Shown: one piece after another, positions 1-7,428 of the stretch
How positions within the stretch are numbered: the stretch's first letter is position 1
Layout: each line of letters begins with the position of its first letter
DNA from: Curvibacter microcysteis
GTDB lineage: Bacteria; Pseudomonadota; Gammaproteobacteria; Burkholderiales; Burkholderiaceae_C
DNA: 64,000 nt
Direction of reading: 5' to 3'
Assembly: GCF_028649455.1 (NCBI RefSeq)
Contig: NZ_JAQSIO010000001.1
Location: forward strand, 310,001 to 374,000
Notes under the pieces: generated by a model
Told to the model about the DNA's origin: nothing
What the model saw: the letters and a program-made list of their open reading frames with translations, nothing else
The model's database searches: none
Program-made: the position numbers and the translations under genes

Positions 1-452
1 CGGGCGGCAAAACCGTGGCCATGCCGGGCCAGCACATGGGTGTGAGCGCCACAGATTGCGGCCATGCCCAGGCCGAAAATCAGCATGCGGGGACGGTAGT
101 CGGGCCAGATCACAAAAAACACAAACAGCCCCACGAGGCACACAAGCACCAAACTCACCCAAGGCCACCAGCGCAAGGGTTGGCCCAGAAACTCGCGCGT
201 GCCGGCCAACAGGGCCACGGAGCAGGCCATCAGCAGCCCGTTGCCTCCCAAGCCCACCAACAGTGCCGGAGCGTACCCCAGCAGGGCATAGAAGCCGGTG
301 GCTCCCAGGCCCAGCAGCGGCGCCAGCCCCCAATACCGAAGGCCCCTGATGTTGCTCGGGAAGTTGTGCCGGATGCCCAGCAGCACAGCGCCCATCACGG
401 CACACTGCAGAGCGGCCAGAAAATTGAAACTGCGCAGGTCCAAAGAGGTCAT
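1..452 (-). CDS. Membrane N-terminus of probable diguanylate cyclase (partial)
   Basis: The reverse strand reads without a stop from an ATG at 452 to the window edge, about 150 residues, starting MTSLDLRSFNFLAALQ. Nearly all of it is hydrophobic helices separated by short basic loops, including a tryptophan-rich stretch (RWWPWVSLVLV), which suggests at least four or five membrane segments. In Burkholderiales this kind of multi-helix N-terminus commonly precedes a GGDEF domain, so a membrane-anchored diguanylate cyclase is the likeliest product, but the catalytic part lies outside the window. The start was chosen because the frame just upstream is interrupted; no strong ribosome site is seen. 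It could instead be another multi-pass membrane sensor. Confidence 0.55.
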   Translation of the reverse strand, partial: MTSLDLRSFNFLAALQCAVMGAVLLGIRHNFPSNIRGLRYWGLAPLLGLGATGFYALLGYAPALLVGLGGNGLLMACSVALLAGTREFLGQPLRWWPWVSLVLVCLVGLFVFFVIWPDYRPRMLIFGLGMAAICGAHTHVLARHGHGFAA

Positions 453-1056
453 GGGGCAAGTGCACTCACGCGGGCGGCGAGTTCTTTCATGAGTCTTCGC
501 AGTTTAGTCGCCTGCACACGGCCAGACGCCCGCCCCTCTTTCTTCCTACATCCCATCTCTGAAATCGAGGTCAGTCGATCACCGTCGTCCGAGGGGTTTA
601 TGCAGGTCGCCATGGTGACTGCAACAAATAAAGTTCGTCGGGGGCAAATAGAGTTCGCCGGGGAAATTCCATATTATGAAATGCAAAGGCACCCCAGTTA
701 AGGCGCTACCCGTTCTTATCCGAAGGTTTGTGGGCGGTAAGGCGGCTGGCTTGAGACTGACCGCCGCCCACCGATCAGCAAATCAGTGACCGCTCTGCTA
801 TGGGAGCATGAACATTGGCGACACGCACCGCTAACCGCCATTCGTCCGGATAGAGCAACAGTTTCGAGCAGAGCGGCCCAAGCAGACGGTGCAGCTACTT
901 CACTGATGTCTCGGCGGAGCACGTCCGGTAGCAGTCTAGAAATCAGTGCACAATCACCAGGCTGATAAAAGTGATCCTGCACACAGGCGGTAGATGAAGT
1001 CGCGCAGACTTCGTACCGGTGCATGAATGTTGAACCCATACCCGTAGGTGTGATTT
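453..1056. other. Intergenic region between divergent genes
   Basis: About 600 bases separate the leftward membrane protein and the rightward hydrolase. No ORF here looks like a real protein; a 107-codon reverse ORF at 716-1039 has no recognisable composition or ribosome site. The region presumably holds both promoters and contains a short imperfect tandem repeat at 626-662. Confidence 0.5.
626..662. repeat. Two-copy 20-base imperfect tandem repeat
   Basis: Two copies of a unit beginning AAATA, then A/G, AGTTCG, T/C, CGGGG start at 626 and 646, exactly 20 bases apart (about two helical turns). Such spacing is compatible with a pair of binding sites for one regulator; this is inference. Confidence 0.4.
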
Positions 1057-1872
1057 ATGGACGTTCTGAAGCGAAACAATGTCAAAGTTTTAGGCGAAGC
1101 TGGACCAACTCTGCTCTATGCACATGGCTTCGGTTGCAACCAAGATATGTGGAGCAAGGTGATTCCGGCCTTCGCAGCGACCCACCGTCAAGTGGTCTTC
1201 GATTACGTGGGCAGCGGTAACTCGGACCGTACAGCCTTCGACCCCTATCGATACAGCGACTTGCGAGGGTACGCACAAGACGTCATCGAGGTCTGTGATG
1301 CACTCAATTTGACTGAAGGTGTAACCTTCGTCGGGCATTCTGTTAGCTGTAGCATTGGAATATTGGCATCGATCAATCGGCCTTCACTGTTCGATAGGCT
1401 TGTACTCTTAGGCCCATCACCTTGCTTTTTGAACGACCCACCTGATTACTTTGGTGGTTTTGAGCGCGAAGATCTGGAGGGTTTGTTGGCTCTCATGGAT
1501 CAGAATTACATGGGTTGGGCGCAGTACCTGGCGCCAGTTGTTGCTGGTGCTTCTGGGCAAGGAGGTGTGGCGGATACGTTGAATGACAGCTTCTGCTCAA
1601 CTGACCCTGCGGTCGCGCGCGTGTTTGCGCGTGCCACGTTCTTCGCAGATAACAGAGCCGACCTGCCTCAGGTTTCACGACCATCGCTTCTCCTTCAGCA
1701 CCGTAAAGACAACTTAGCTCCATTGAGTGTTGGCGAGTATCTTCACGCTCACATGCCCGCAAGTACTCTACGGGTCATTGACGTAGAAGGCCACTGTGGG
1801 CACATGAGTAATCCATCTCTGGTCATAGAGGCGATGCGGGACTACATGGCAGTCACAGCTGTTGCAGCCTGA
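1057..1872 (+). CDS. rsbQ: RsbQ-like alpha/beta hydrolase
   Basis: 271-residue cytoplasmic alpha/beta hydrolase closely resembling Bacillus RsbQ across its length: an early YAHGFGCNQDMW oxyanion-hole loop, the VFDYVGSGNSD segment, the nucleophile elbow GHSVS (Ser95), acid Asp218 in KDN, and base His246 in EGHCGHMS. The cap region YFGGFEREDLEGLL also matches RsbQ. In Bacillus, RsbQ is needed for RsbP, a PAS-PP2C phosphatase, to activate the general stress response, probably by producing or binding a small hydrophobic ligand for the PAS domain. Here the next gene, 15 bases downstream, starts with a PAS domain but carries GGDEF-EAL outputs, so the pair likely converts the ligand signal into a c-di-GMP change. 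The substrate is unknown. Confidence 0.85.
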   Translation: MDVLKRNNVKVLGEAGPTLLYAHGFGCNQDMWSKVIPAFAATHRQVVFDYVGSGNSDRTAFDPYRYSDLRGYAQDVIEVCDALNLTEGVTFVGHSVSCSIGILASINRPSLFDRLVLLGPSPCFLNDPPDYFGGFEREDLEGLLALMDQNYMGWAQYLAPVVAGASGQGGVADTLNDSFCSTDPAVARVFARATFFADNRADLPQVSRPSLLLQHRKDNLAPLSVGEYLHAHMPASTLRVIDVEGHCGHMSNPSLVIEAMRDYMAVTAVAA

Positions 1873-1887
1873 CGCGAAGTCCCCACG

Positions 1888-4800
1888 ATGACACATTTGG
1901 ATGAGTTGCCCTGTGCCGTTTTGATCACAGACGGCATGGGGCGTGTACTGGAGGTCAATTCTGAACTTCTTGCAATGGTGGGGAGGTCGCGTGAAGTTGC
2001 TATCAGCACGTCGCTCTCAGATCTGCTCCCCCCAGCTAGTAAGATATTTTTGCAGACTCATGTGTGGCCAACACTATTTCGTGACGCCCACATTCATGAG
2101 GTCCATCTACAAGTAATTGGATCTGATACCTCGCGCATACCAGTGCTGGTGAACTCTCGGCTAGGTGAATATTTAGGACGACCAGCCTATTACTGGACAA
2201 TGTTTGCAGCCCGCGAGCGTAACCGCTTTGAGGTAGCTTTGGTGGAGCAACGTAACCTTGCAGATGCTGCAAATCGAGCACTTCTCGATGGCCAGCGATT
2301 TGTCAAAAAAGTTACCGATGCAATTCCCGGCATGGTCGCGTATTGGGACAAGGATTTACTTTGTCGATTTGCCAATAAGGCATATGAGGAGTGGTTCGGT
2401 CTGACGTCTGATCAACTGCTCGGGACATCTTTGAAAAACCTGTTAGGCGAGCAGGTTTTCTCGTTGAATCAGGTGTACATTTGCGCAGCGCTAGGCGGTC
2501 AAGAGCAGTATTTCGAGCGTAGCCTGGTTAAGTCCGATGGTACTGTTGGTTATACAGTCGCGCACTATCTGCCCGACCGTGTTAACGGCGAGACTTGCGG
2601 TTTCTTCGCGATAGTCAACGACATCACATCGCTTAAATCCGCTCAATTGGCACTGGAGGAGGCGCAGCGTCTAGGAGGCATCGGCAGCTGGACTTGGCGT
2701 ATTGATAGTGATGTTGTGGCCTGGTCTACACAGCTCTATGCGATTTTTGGCTACGATCCAGAACTACCTGCGCCAACCTTTGCAGGCCACGCCCAATTTT
2801 TTGAAGAACAAGCCTACGCTGATTTATCCAAGCACGTAGATCGAACCGTCGAAACGGGTGAACCCTACGAACTGGAGCTGCCTTACAAAAAATCCGATGG
2901 CAGTTGCGGCTGGGTGGAGACGCGTGGCGAAGTCGTACGCAGTCCCTCTGGACAAATTATTGGCTTGAGAGGAACGCTGCAAGAAATCTCACAGCGCCGA
3001 ACGCAGAAAATGGCATTGGAAGCGACACAAAGTCGCCTTCAGGCTATGTACGAGACAACGCCAGCCATGCTCCATTCGATTGATGCGCAGGGTCGCCTGT
3101 TGCATGTCAGCGATGCCTGGCTAGCCAGCCTTGGCTACCGCCGGGAGGATGTAATCGGACGAGCTTCGTCAGATTTCATGACCGAAGAATCCCGTATCCG
3201 TGCGCGCAATGAGGTTCTTCCCCAATTCTTTGCAACTGGTCGCTGTGACGACGTGCCATATCAGATGGTTACCCGAACAGGGGAAGTCATCGATGTACTT
3301 CTATCAGCCATTCTTGAGCGCGATCAGAGTGGTCAATCGGTACGCAGCCTTGCGATCGTCCAAGACGTGACGATGCGTCGTCGTGCGGAACGCGAGCTTG
3401 CTAGAGAACATGCCCGACTTCGAAACCTAATCGAAGGAACGAACGCGGGGACCTGGGAATGGAATGTTCAGACGGGAGAGGTGATAGTCAACCCACGCTG
3501 GGGAGAAATTCTCGGCTGGCCTGCTGATGAGCTAGGCGTGGTGACAAATCAATTTCGAGCCGATATCTCTCATCCAGATGAACTGTCTCAGACTCGTGCC
3601 CTTCTGAGGGAGCACTTTGCAGGTGGTTCCGATGTATACGTCACCGAAGTGCGCCTTAAGCACCGTCAAGGTCATTGGGTGTGGGTCGAAGATCGCGGGC
3701 GGTTGATTACGCGCACAGCTGATGGGCGTCCTGAATGGATGTTTGGTATACAAATCGACATCTCTGAACGCAAGCGTCGCGACGAATCATTGCTCAGACT
3801 AACTACGGAGTTGGCAACTCAGCACGAATTGATGCGGGTCACATTGAGGTCCATCGGCGATGCTGTCATCACAACCGACGCATCTGGATTGATCAGCTGG
3901 CTCAATCCAGTAGCAGAGAAGATGACTGGATGGCTATCTGCTGAAGCTGTCGGGCGACCGCTACTGCAAATCTTTCACATCGTCAACGAAGAGACCCGTG
4001 AGCCAGCGCCTGACCCAGTGGCAGCCTGCATGGCAGAAGGCCGTATCGTTGGGTTGGCCCACCACACGCTCCTGATATCGCGAGACAACACTGAGTACGG
4101 CATCCAGGACTCAGCAGCCCCAATACTGAACGCAAATGGCGAAATGCTGGGTGTTGTCCTCGTGTTCCATGACGTCAGCGAGCAGCGACGTTTGAGTGGA
4201 GAGATGACTTATCGTGCAACCCACGATGCCTTGACAGGTCTACTCAATCGTGCGGAGTTTGAGACTCGCATGTCACGTACGCTGCGACATGCACATGAGC
4301 ACGACAGCTATCACGCGCTGATGTATATCGATCTCGATCAGTTCAAGTTGGTCAACGATGCTTGTGGACACGCGATTGGGGATCAGCTGCTTCAACAGGT
4401 CAGCAAATTGCTTACTGATGCTATACGCGCCCGTGACACACTCGCTCGTTTGGGTGGAGATGAGTTCGCGATCATTCTGGAACATTGCACGATGGAGCAA
4501 GCCTGTCGCGTTGCACAGAAGATTTGCGACCGAATGGATACTTTTCGATTCATACACGAAGACCGGCGCTTTCGAATCGGAGCAAGCATTGGACTTGTAC
4601 CGGTAGATAAACGTTGGACAAGTACCTCGACTATTCAACAGGCCGCAGATACCTCTTGTTATGCAGCTAAAGAAGCTGGGCGAAACCGGGTTCATGTTTG
4701 GTTTGATACTGACGCTTCGATGCGTGCCAGAAACCATGAAATTCAATGGACCTCTCGAATTGAGAGTGCACTGGATGGCGATGGCTTCGAACTATTTGCG

Positions 4801-5493
4801 CAGCGCATTGAGTGCCTGAAGACGCAGACGCAGACGCAGGGCATTCATGCTGAAGTTCTGCTGCGAATGCGCAATGCGGACGGGTCGTTGGTACTCCCCG
4901 GCTCATTTCTACCAGCAGCCGAGCGCTTTCATTTGGTTACACGGGTTGACCGGTGGGTATTAGGTCGATCAGTCAACTGGCTGAAGAGTCTGCCTGCAAC
5001 TAACAACATCGAAAGTCTGAGTGTGAATCTATCGGGCCAGTCGGTGGGGGATCGGGCTTTTCATTCATGGGTCTATGAACTGTTCGCAGAGGTCGGTCCT
5101 TTGGTCTGCTCCAAAATTTGCCTCGAAATCACTGAAACAGCTGCAGTTACGAACCTTGCAGATGCAGTGATCTTCATCAGACAGGTCCGTGAAGCTGGCG
5201 TGAAGGTCTCGCTGGATGACTTTGGCGCCGGTGCATCATCATTTGGCTATTTGAAGGCTTTACCAGTTGACTATCTAAAAATCGACGGACAATACATTCG
5301 CAACCTGGTACTCGACAAATTGGATGATGCTGCCGTTCGTTGTTTTGTTGATATTGCGCAACTTTCGGGACTCAAGACGGTGGCGGAGTTTGTTGACAAT
5401 TCCGATGTGCTCAATCGGCTGCATGTGATAGGAGTTGATTATGCGCAAGGTTATCTTTTACACCGACCCGAGCCTATTGACCGCTTACTCTGA
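1888..5493 (+). CDS. Multi-PAS GGDEF-EAL c-di-GMP protein, RsbQ partner
   Basis: 1201 residues, no membrane segment seen, so probably soluble. The first roughly 110 residues form a PAS domain of the RsbP type (LITDGMGRVLEVN, then LLPPASKIFLQTHVWP). About five further PAS/PAC units follow to residue ~770, with FGYDPE, ILGWPADELG and ISWLNPVAEKMTGW as markers. The diguanylate cyclase domain carries GGDEF at 856-860 and an RxxD product-inhibition site at 847-850. The phosphodiesterase domain has EVL instead of EAL at 989-991 and DDFG at 1110-1113; EVL variants can be active. Both activities are therefore plausible, with balance set by the PAS sensors. It starts just after the rsbQ-like gene, so co-transcription is expected. 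The ligand sensed and dominant activity cannot be told from sequence. Confidence 0.9.
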   Translation: MTHLDELPCAVLITDGMGRVLEVNSELLAMVGRSREVAISTSLSDLLPPASKIFLQTHVWPTLFRDAHIHEVHLQVIGSDTSRIPVLVNSRLGEYLGRPAYYWTMFAARERNRFEVALVEQRNLADAANRALLDGQRFVKKVTDAIPGMVAYWDKDLLCRFANKAYEEWFGLTSDQLLGTSLKNLLGEQVFSLNQVYICAALGGQEQYFERSLVKSDGTVGYTVAHYLPDRVNGETCGFFAIVNDITSLKSAQLALEEAQRLGGIGSWTWRIDSDVVAWSTQLYAIFGYDPELPAPTFAGHAQFFEEQAYADLSKHVDRTVETGEPYELELPYKKSDGSCGWVETRGEVVRSPSGQIIGLRGTLQEISQRRTQKMALEATQSRLQAMYETTPAMLHSIDAQGRLLHVSDAWLASLGYRREDVIGRASSDFMTEESRIRARNEVLPQFFATGRCDDVPYQMVTRTGEVIDVLLSAILERDQSGQSVRSLAIVQDVTMRRRAERELAREHARLRNLIEGTNAGTWEWNVQTGEVIVNPRWGEILGWPADELGVVTNQFRADISHPDELSQTRALLREHFAGGSDVYVTEVRLKHRQGHWVWVEDRGRLITRTADGRPEWMFGIQIDISERKRRDESLLRLTTELATQHELMRVTLRSIGDAVITTDASGLISWLNPVAEKMTGWLSAEAVGRPLLQIFHIVNEETREPAPDPVAACMAEGRIVGLAHHTLLISRDNTEYGIQDSAAPILNANGEMLGVVLVFHDVSEQRRLSGEMTYRATHDALTGLLNRAEFETRMSRTLRHAHEHDSYHALMYIDLDQFKLVNDACGHAIGDQLLQQVSKLLTDAIRARDTLARLGGDEFAIILEHCTMEQACRVAQKICDRMDTFRFIHEDRRFRIGASIGLVPVDKRWTSTSTIQQAADTSCYAAKEAGRNRVHVWFDTDASMRARNHEIQWTSRIESALDGDGFELFAQRIECLKTQTQTQGIHAEVLLRMRNADGSLVLPGSFLPAAERFHLVTRVDRWVLGRSVNWLKSLPATNNIESLSVNLSGQSVGDRAFHSWVYELFAEVGPLVCSKICLEITETAAVTNLADAVIFIRQVREAGVKVSLDDFGAGASSFGYLKALPVDYLKIDGQYIRNLVLDKLDDAAVRCFVDIAQLSGLKTVAEFVDNSDVLNRLHVIGVDYAQGYLLHRPEPIDRLL

Positions 5494-5868
5494 ATCTCGT
5501 TTGGCTGATTTTTCTAGACATCTTTTAATTAGCCGCATCAAAGGTTGTTTTAGATATCTCATTCGCATGAGTTTTTGATTTTGATATTCAATTATATTGA
5601 CTTCAATTTTTGTGGAGATTTTAATATTCGTTAAATTGAGTCGGCCAGCCACGCAAAAGATAGCGGGTCTTGAAATTAGCAGGATCAGCTAGGCATAGAT
5701 CACTATGGATCTAACTTGGTTTAAAGAAAATTTCAGCTCCTAGCTCGCAGGGCCCGATTAGATAATTAGCCAAATTCACTCTCCTACTGTGCACATCAGA
5801 GGGGCGCACTTCAGAGAGTGGACCAGTGACAGTAGCTACCATAGGCTACGCGCGGTGCGACGACGTGC
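5494..5868. other. AT-rich intergenic region between converging genes
   Basis: About 375 bases, clearly more AT-rich than the flanks (5520-5640 especially), lying between the end of the GGDEF-EAL gene and the end of the reverse-strand chemoreceptor gene. No ORF or clear hairpin terminator recognised. Confidence 0.5.
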
Positions 5869-7428
5869 TCAGTTTGAAACGGAGACCGCTTCCACCAATT
5901 GTTGGGCCTGGTATTACCGGCTTTGAGCAGCTGCGGCGCTCTCCTCAACCAAGGCAGAGTTCTGTTGCGTCGTTTGATCCAGCTGATTGATGGCCTGGCC
6001 GATCTGGGTCACGCCAGAGCTTTGTTCCGAACTGGCCAAGCTGATTTCACTGACGATATGGCTCACTCGAGCGATGGCTGTGACGACTTCTTCCATGGTC
6101 TGCCCCGCTTTGTCCACCAGCATCGTGCCCTGCTCGACTTGTTCCACGCTGGCACCGATGAGGGCCTTGATCTCCTTGGCGGCCTCGGCTGAGCGGCCGG
6201 CAAGGCTCCGGACCTCCGAGGCGACGACGGCAAAGCCGCGGCCTTGCTCACCTGCTCGAGCTGCTTCCACGGCAGCGTTCAATGCGAGGATATTGGTCTG
6301 GAAGGCGATGCCATCGATGACGCCGATGATGTCACCGATCTTCTTGGAGCTGTCATTGATCCCCTTCATTGTTTCAACCACCTGGGCCACCACCATGCCC
6401 CCCTTGCTCGCCACATCAGAAGCGTTGTGAGCCAGTTCGCTGGCCGTCTTGGCGTTGTCTGCGTTGAGGCGCACCGTGTTGCCAAATTCGTCCATGGTCG
6501 CGGCCGTTTGCTGCAGTGCACTGGCCTGTTCTTCGGTTCGCTGGCTCAGATCGGTATTGCCGCTTGAGATCTGAGCCGACCCCGTTGCAATCGAGTCAGC
6601 GGCTCCGCGCACCTGGCTGACGATCTGGACCAGGCTTTGCTGCATGGCACCGAGCGATTCAAGAACACTGTCGGGAGGCGCCGTCGCAGCGCCAGCCAGG
6701 TTGGCCAGGTCTCCCTCGGCGACCCGTTGAGCCACCTGACCCAGAAAGCCGGGTTCCGCGCCCAAAGCACGGGTCAGACTGCGCACGATCAAAGCGCCTG
6801 TCAGGACCGCCGTCACAACCGCGATCAGGCAGGCTGCAACAAGCCAATTGCGTTGAATTCGGTAGTGTTCTTCGGCCTCTTTGACCATGGCCGCTGACCG
6901 TTTGGCGGTTACTTCGGCGTAGGCCTGCGACTTCTTGATCAGCTCAGCCAGCAGCGGTCGGCATTCATCATTCATCTTGGCGATGGCTTCGTCCCGTTTG
7001 TTCTGCAAGGCCAATTGGACGATGCCCAGGGCAACTGGGCCATAGGCTTGCTCGACCACAACAATGTCATTGACCAGGGCCTTGATGTCGGCAGGGACCT
7101 CAGGGCTGGCCGTCAGCTCTTTCAGAGCGGTGAGGTCTTTCTGAACCTGCTCGTGCGCCCGGGTGACAGCCAACTTCTCTTGCTCCAGCTCGGCAGGCTT
7201 GGTGATCAACACCAGATTGCGAGCCGCAATCGCCCGAGCATCCACCTCGATCAGTATTCGATTGACCAGAGAGGCTCGGGCATTGATGCCCGTCACGAAG
7301 GACTCAAAAGCTTGGTTAGCATCCTAGAGAGCGATGATGGCCAAGCCCGATGCCAGAAGCATCAGGGCTGTCAAACCGCTAAAGGCTGCGGTGAGCTTCG
7401 CCCGAACGGACATGTGTTGAGTTGACAT
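5869..7428 (-). pseudogene. Methyl-accepting chemotaxis protein, broken by two in-frame stops
   Basis: The reverse strand encodes a transmembrane chemoreceptor. An ATG at 7428 or 7413 opens a basic-then-hydrophobic first helix (SVRAKLTAAFSGLTALMLL). The frame hits TAG at 7324-7326, about codon 30 counted from the ATG at 7413, then continues with a four-helix ligand domain, a second helix ([20 protein letters not shown]), and a full signalling domain with the conserved hairpin tip [20 protein letters not shown]. Near the end a TAA at 5914-5916 interrupts the usual QAQQLVEAVS tail, which continues in the same frame to a final TGA at 5869-5871. Reading frame is preserved throughout, so decay seems recent, or one stop could be a base-calling error. 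A protein starting at 7296 would lack the first helix and be non-functional as a periplasmic sensor. Confidence 0.8.

Follow-up and report, generated by a model that had tools for sequence, protein, structure and literature searches.

In a 64,000-nucleotide stretch of the Curvibacter microcysteis genome (hereafter the window; contig NZ_JAQSIO010000001.1), an open reading frame for an RsbQ-type alpha/beta hydrolase of 271 aa (1057..1872, + strand) is followed by one for a 1201-aa protein in which Pfam, run by segment, recognized six PAS domains plus GGDEF and EAL domains (1888..5493, + strand), raising the question of whether the hydrolase acts as the sensing half of a c-di-GMP enzyme. The arrangement itself has precedents. 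In 2011, Nadezhdin, Brody and Price collected 45 pairs of RsbQ with an RsbP-type PAS protein, whose outputs were phosphatases, histidine kinases or diguanylate cyclases (PMC3183031); three of the cyclases in their set had an EAL domain, and the Psychromonas protein A1SX34 (P. ingrahamii) was a PAS-PAS-GGDEF-EAL protein with tandem cyclase and phosphodiesterase domains. The kinase and cyclase links of the RsbQ module were restated in an eLife paper of 2025 that also used AlphaFold2 to model RsbP and RsbQ as a 2:2 complex (PMC12143880). Among the titles and abstracts listed in searches of the open-access literature, none reported experiments on a pair of RsbQ and a GGDEF protein, a result that does not prove the absence of such work.

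The window pair is a well-supported example of the arrangement published in 2011, to which we add natural fusions, a reversed gene order, an adjacency test in the reverse direction and a hint concerning the hydrolase lid. Our preferred reading, to which we give a probability of about 0.75, is that the pair forms a bipartite RsbQ-PAS sensor wired to c-di-GMP turnover through docking of the hydrolase lid on helix F-alpha of the first PAS domain (PAS1); for this sensor we infer a ligand, a dimeric partner, a direction of effect and an outcome for c-di-GMP. The original prediction, that a hydrolase-PAS logic sets c-di-GMP at this locus, was right in outline and supported in part, given the adjacency in both directions and the fusions described below and an output predicted to be a c-di-GMP enzyme, though it had in substance been published, since the 2011 module already included a diguanylate cyclase output.

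The gene pair and its domains

By sequence, the window hydrolase is an RsbQ homologue. Among solved structures searched with phmmer, its nearest match was B. subtilis RsbQ (1wom, E 2.2e-94), followed by 'Olei00960' (3qvm, 3.6e-81) and an alpha/beta-hydrolase (7ukb, 3.2e-57), and plant KAI2/D14-type receptors matched from 1.2e-56. The comparison with karrikin and strigolactone receptors made in the original prediction was sound at this level, and a joint structure prediction (pLDDT 93.6, pTM 0.72) gave the window hydrolase four lid helices at about residues 137-195, the limits being those of the predicted model. Plant KAI2/D14-type receptors likewise have four lid helices, and their partners are F-box and repressor proteins, not a PAS domain. 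The triad Ser95, Asp218 and His246, claimed to be intact, aligned to 1wom and was invariant across the 26 rows of alignment A1. For tallies over paired homologues, 185 loci were scanned (window included, several obtained by two routes), from which loci without an adjacent PAS domain, hydrolase matches with a stop codon and PAS domains containing X were dropped to leave 166 pairs, and removal of hydrolases at least 90% identical left 146. The triad was S-D-H in 144 of these 146 (window counted). Residues F25, V96, F135 and F195 occupy the aligned positions of the pocket and gate residues of B. subtilis RsbQ, F27, V97, F136 and F196 (PMC3183031).

The sensor gene starts (ATG 1888) 15 nt past the hydrolase stop codon (TGA 1870-1872), the distance originally given, and the intergenic gap (1873..1887, + strand) separates two genes that share a common reading frame with the TGA between them. 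Scans for promoter-like and terminator-like sites gave 1 and 4, respectively, against shuffle means of 4.6 and 5.1, none above chance.

PAS1 (1897..2226, + strand) reached 130 bits with an RsbP-PAS profile derived from PAS domains sitting beside RsbQ, PAS1 itself being among the seeds, and the match began at residue 4 of 1201, which makes the RsbP-type domain the most N-terminal of the six. Among its residues Cys9, Leu12, Leu47, Lys52, Phe54, Leu55, His58, Pro61, Glu71 and Pro85, all except Pro61 agree by class with the nine RsbP class residues, under a one-residue register and a class for each position that we assume from spacing. In RsbP itself these are C10, L13, L48, Q53, F55, C56, Y59, E72 and P86 (PMC3183031). 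Across the 146 non-redundant pairs (window counted), Glu71 was kept in 144 and Pro61 in 140, His or Tyr stood at position 58 in 129 and an aromatic residue at position 54 in 108, and Cys stood at position 9 in 102/144. A DIT-like end was found in 0/146 paired PAS1 domains, again with the window counted; PAS2 to PAS6 (2263..4200, + strand), generic PAS folds recognized by Pfam in segments, all close with a DIT-like motif as judged by eye. Profile score, class residues and the missing DIT motif agree with the earlier assignment of PAS1 to the RsbP type. A PDB search with PAS1 alone returned no match at E up to 1. In the predicted model, PAS1 is followed by a helix (residues 388-421 of the joined chain), and by Pfam five PAS domains precede the output; in the 2011 set, a coiled coil lay between PAS and output in 36 of 45 proteins, with extra-PAS proteins listed as exceptions (PMC3183031).

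The GGDEF domain (4216..4689, + strand; Pfam 1.9e-45) carries its GGDEF motif at residue 856 and an RxxD motif (RARD) at 847, with the usual spacing of five residues. In the EAL domain (4762..5469, + strand; Pfam 1.3e-54), we found EVLLR at 989, NLS at 1047, EITE at 1080, DDFG at 1110, KID at 1131 and Glu1167, with N1047, E1080, D1110-D1111, K1131 and E1167 at the metal and catalytic positions. As the GGDEF, RxxD and EAL motifs that were searched are intact, we predict both domains to be enzymatically competent. The outputs had been described as GGDEF and 'EVL' domains, of which the first stands, while the second is an ordinary EAL domain whose EVLLR fits the ExLxR motif. An inactive 'EVL' domain was ruled out by the intact EAL motifs that were searched, and identity of the protein with RsbP itself by Pfam, which showed GGDEF and EAL domains and no PPM phosphatase.

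Of the partners in the 146 non-redundant pairs, 63 had GGDEF, in 23 cases together with EAL; 55 resembled histidine kinases in their motifs, and the other 28 were left unclassified by simple motifs, although several of these resemble a kinase or a phosphatase or are truncated. Since 63/146 pairs carry GGDEF, c-di-GMP appears to be a major output of the module. The window pair shares with the module of 2011 the RsbQ gene directly upstream, the N-terminal RsbP-type PAS domain with its class residues and no DIT motif, the GGDEF output, and the additional PAS and EAL domains; it differs in having six PAS domains, where PMC3183031 mentions one or two extra ones. With B. subtilis RsbQ-RsbP it shares the hydrolase and the PAS type, and it differs in its output, which in RsbP is a PPM phosphatase that feeds sigma-B.

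Adjacency, gene order and fusions across genomes

We searched 399 sampled genomes of the family of the window for the hydrolase (cut E <= 1e-50, 6 candidates scored per genome), and 58 of them (own genome included) held it, in 74 places. At the 73 places besides the window, an RsbP-type PAS domain (at least 20 bits) was found downstream in 63 and fused in 1, and none was found in 9. At 24 further places, 2 from a sample of the class and 22 from one of the phylum, the corresponding numbers were 20, 1 and 3. A wide scan of 84,980 species genomes with one peptide pattern yielded at least 589 confirmed candidates, of which the best 80 were kept; PAS lay downstream in 73 and upstream in 5 of these 80, and the two others were L132, which runs to a contig edge, and L161, with no PAS. 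The broad PAS profile used here was retrained on part of this set, so its counts are not fully independent; the family-only profile had already given 73/80 downstream. Placed by record title and taxonomy, the best 80 of at least 589 loci come from Pseudomonadota, Bacillota, Bacteroidota, Acidobacteriota, Gemmatimonadota, Cyanobacteria, Actinomycetota, Chloroflexota and Verrucomicrobia.

The association was also visible from the side of the PAS domain. Searching the same 399 genomes with the RsbP-PAS profile (11 candidates scored per genome) gave 84 PAS places, 64 at 75 bits or more and 20 weaker, and RsbQ (E 1e-50) lay within 500 nt of 60/64 strong matches versus 1/20 weaker ones. In this search 61 of the 74 family hydrolases had an adjacent PAS match and 13 had none, which differs from the 64/73 of the forward search because a stricter cut was used. 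Four strong PAS matches were without RsbQ within 500 nt, and the one that was checked, L261, is a true orphan, its 3.3 kb being free of any hydrolase; in its F-alpha (ILLQTQ), Phe54 is replaced by Leu and His58 by Gln. The genome search that had been proposed as a check on the pair thus showed adjacency to be conserved among related genomes, and on these numbers (64/73 in the family, 78/80 among the best of at least 589, 60/64 in reverse) chance neighbours were rejected as an explanation. The hydrolases without a neighbouring PAS domain (9/73 at 20 bits, 13/74 at the stricter cut) suggest that RsbQ-like proteins can also act alone.

Hydrolase and PAS were joined in one chain in three proteins. 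L084 and L225, from two species of one genus in which an RsbQ match was found in 2/41 genomes, are hydrolase-PAS-histidine kinase proteins of 649 and 651 aa, and L198, from a single-contig genome, is a hydrolase-PAS-GGDEF protein with a 585-aa frame; RsbQ matched in 7/13 genomes of the genus of the latter, and the other six have separate adjacent hydrolase and PAS genes. The order was reversed, with a PAS-GGDEF-EAL gene followed by the hydrolase, in five loci of Halomonas, Vreelandella and Marinobacter, one of which has a GGDEF that is degenerate by motif. The 2011 study sought PAS downstream of RsbQ, and its accessible text does not mention reversed orders or fusions (PMC3183031). From adjacency in both directions, the five reversed loci and the three fusions, we consider it very probable that hydrolase and PAS1 function together, a coupling for which comparative genomics gives strong support. 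The partners of hydrolases 72% identical to that of the window were kinases, cyclases or cyclase-EAL proteins, which suggests that what is portable is the unit of hydrolase and PAS.

Several minor observations were made in these searches. L261 encodes an RsbP-type PAS-PAS-GGDEF-type protein, upstream of which is an HDOD-like gene. In six family genomes (L046, L049, L053, L057, L071 and L079), the hydrolase match contains stop codons, representing either decayed genes or matches running beyond the true stop. A plasmid search gave 65 records with RsbQ relatives; among the matches listed, all were below 60% identity and the hosts included Streptomyces, Rhizobium and Phaeobacter; under one Neorhizobium match, the annotation shows a PAS histidine kinase.

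A candidate contact between the lid and helix F-alpha

We compared 13 orphan hydrolases without an adjacent PAS domain with 111 paired ones less than 55% identical to the window protein. The triad was kept in 13/13 orphans, and the consensus dropped from paired to orphan proteins at Asn150 (0.90 to 0.08), Asp139 (0.90 to 0.31) and Leu175 (0.94 to 0.38). The lid (residues 134-197) accounts for 9 of the 10 greatest losses in the orphans; these are partly interrelated and, on average, a little more divergent, and therefore do not represent 13 independent events.

Alignment A2 omits L166 and L186 as well as the PAS rows of L152, L153, L157 and L170, whose hydrolase rows were kept. Mean-field covariation was calculated over the 146 pairs. 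The top score was 1.255, and the highest value reached when partners were shuffled 25 times was 1.226. Hydrolase residues 144-152 and PAS1 residues 52-62 formed one of the densest boxes (pairs 144-57, 144-58, 148-52, 151-54, 152-62 and 147-60), and the fixed box 136-150 x 50-64 was equalled or beaten by 5.5%, 1.7% and 0.9% of 15x15 boxes for the top 50, 100 and 200 pairs, respectively. The box of hydrolase 105-121 and PAS1 33-54 was equally dense, and the expected boxes of hydrolase 136-150 with PAS1 4-18 and 104-118 showed no enrichment. Taken singly, the lid and F-alpha counts in the top 100 did not exceed the shuffle maximum (21 versus 23 and 18 versus 18), and the wider combined interface region was partly picked after the top pairs had been seen. 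The tree distances of hydrolase and PAS1 correlated with r = 0.68 (maximum 0.10 in 1000 shuffles), a value that is uninformative alone because inheritance in a shared operon yields the same.

The PAS1 residue paired with hydrolase 151 in the covariation is Phe54, which we take by the assumed register to be RsbP Phe55. In RsbP, Phe55 lies in F-alpha and the F55A substitution abolishes RsbQ binding in two-hybrid and pull-down assays (PMC3183031). Lid losses, covariation and this residue together make docking of the hydrolase lid on helix F-alpha of PAS1 moderately likely.

Proposed mechanism, competing readings and genome context

In the mechanism that we propose, a small molecule would enter the Ser-Asp-His pocket of the hydrolase, whose lid helices would then dock on helix F-alpha of PAS1, this being a moderately supported step. 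The state of the pocket would be relayed from PAS1 by the helix that follows it, across the five remaining PAS domains, to GGDEF and EAL in a partner that is presumably a dimer, shifting the balance between synthesis and breakdown of c-di-GMP. With five extra PAS domains between PAS1 and the output, the control exerted by the hydrolase may be weak or shared.

The 2011 study set out two models, in which the hydrolase either delivers a product to the PAS domain or is itself the sensor (PMC3183031). According to the former (Model 1 of that paper), a product or cofactor made by the hydrolase is handed to the pocket of PAS1, which would then do the sensing. We regard this as possible and somewhat short of an even prospect here: it would account for the triad being required for signalling in B. 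subtilis (as cited in PMC3183031) and kept in nearly all paired hydrolases, and PAS folds are often ligand binders (PMC3183031), whereas it is the lid and not the triad that differs between paired and orphan hydrolases. The plant relatives also speak against it, as their signalling proceeds by a change that the ligand induces in the hydrolase and in its contacts. Far less probable, to the point of being nearly negligible, is that the two genes are mere co-transcribed neighbours and the hydrolase has an unrelated metabolic job. Short gaps are frequent in operons and 9/73 family hydrolases lack an adjacent PAS domain, as such a reading would have it, but the adjacency in both directions with its sharp score threshold, the reversed pairs and the fusions are not readily accounted for by a common operon alone.

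The remaining alternative concerns the output and accepts that the pair cooperates, with the GGDEF-EAL part having a regulatory or local role instead of setting bulk c-di-GMP. In many dual GGDEF-EAL proteins the action is local or one of the domains has a regulatory function, and the GGDEF domain was degenerate by motif in 3 of the 23 GGDEF-EAL partners; in the window protein, on the other hand, GGDEF, RxxD and all searched EAL motifs are intact, and we consider the local role unlikely. We prefer the bipartite sensor with lid docking to these three readings.

A more specific version of this sensor is that RsbQ-PAS is a bacterial counterpart of KAI2/D14, in which the occupied hydrolase would offer F-alpha the part of its lid near Asn150 (helix T1 and the T1-T2 turn), and a possibly butenolide-like molecule would directly gate c-di-GMP turnover; we put this forward as a rather doubtful proposal. 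According to the 2011 study, neither a ligand nor a signal had been identified for RsbQ-RsbP (PMC3183031), and the KAI2 ligand was still termed undiscovered in a 2023 review. The single-chain hydrolase-PAS-GGDEF and hydrolase-PAS-kinase proteins offer ready-made receptors for testing the KAI2/D14-like reading. In the absence of cell extract, purified RsbQ failed to bind purified RsbP in vitro (PMC3183031), a difficulty that natural fusions bypass, giving a direct route to ligand screening.

The genome carries a second pair on another contig (G000:C4:42240-43037), with a hydrolase 81% identical to that of the window and a 1210-aa PAS-GGDEF-EAL partner. Among eight other genomes of the same genus, one had a hydrolase match, so the pair is patchy in distribution, and the closest named record among the best 80 of at least 589 loci was Acidovorax sp. 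A1169 (87%). GC content was 0.50-0.56 across window positions 1-6000 and 0.59-0.69 in most of the remaining window, with further dips at 26-38 kb, and the low GC around the pair may reflect acquisition. Divergent from the hydrolase gene is a membrane diguanylate-cyclase-like gene (GGEEF, by eye; window 1 to 452, - strand; L232 13305-14453), so that two c-di-GMP genes flank a single intergenic region. On the other side, a gene resembling those for methyl-accepting chemotaxis proteins (5914-7296, - strand, by eye) is convergent with the sensor gene, and chemotaxis-like genes were also seen upstream of the window in L232.
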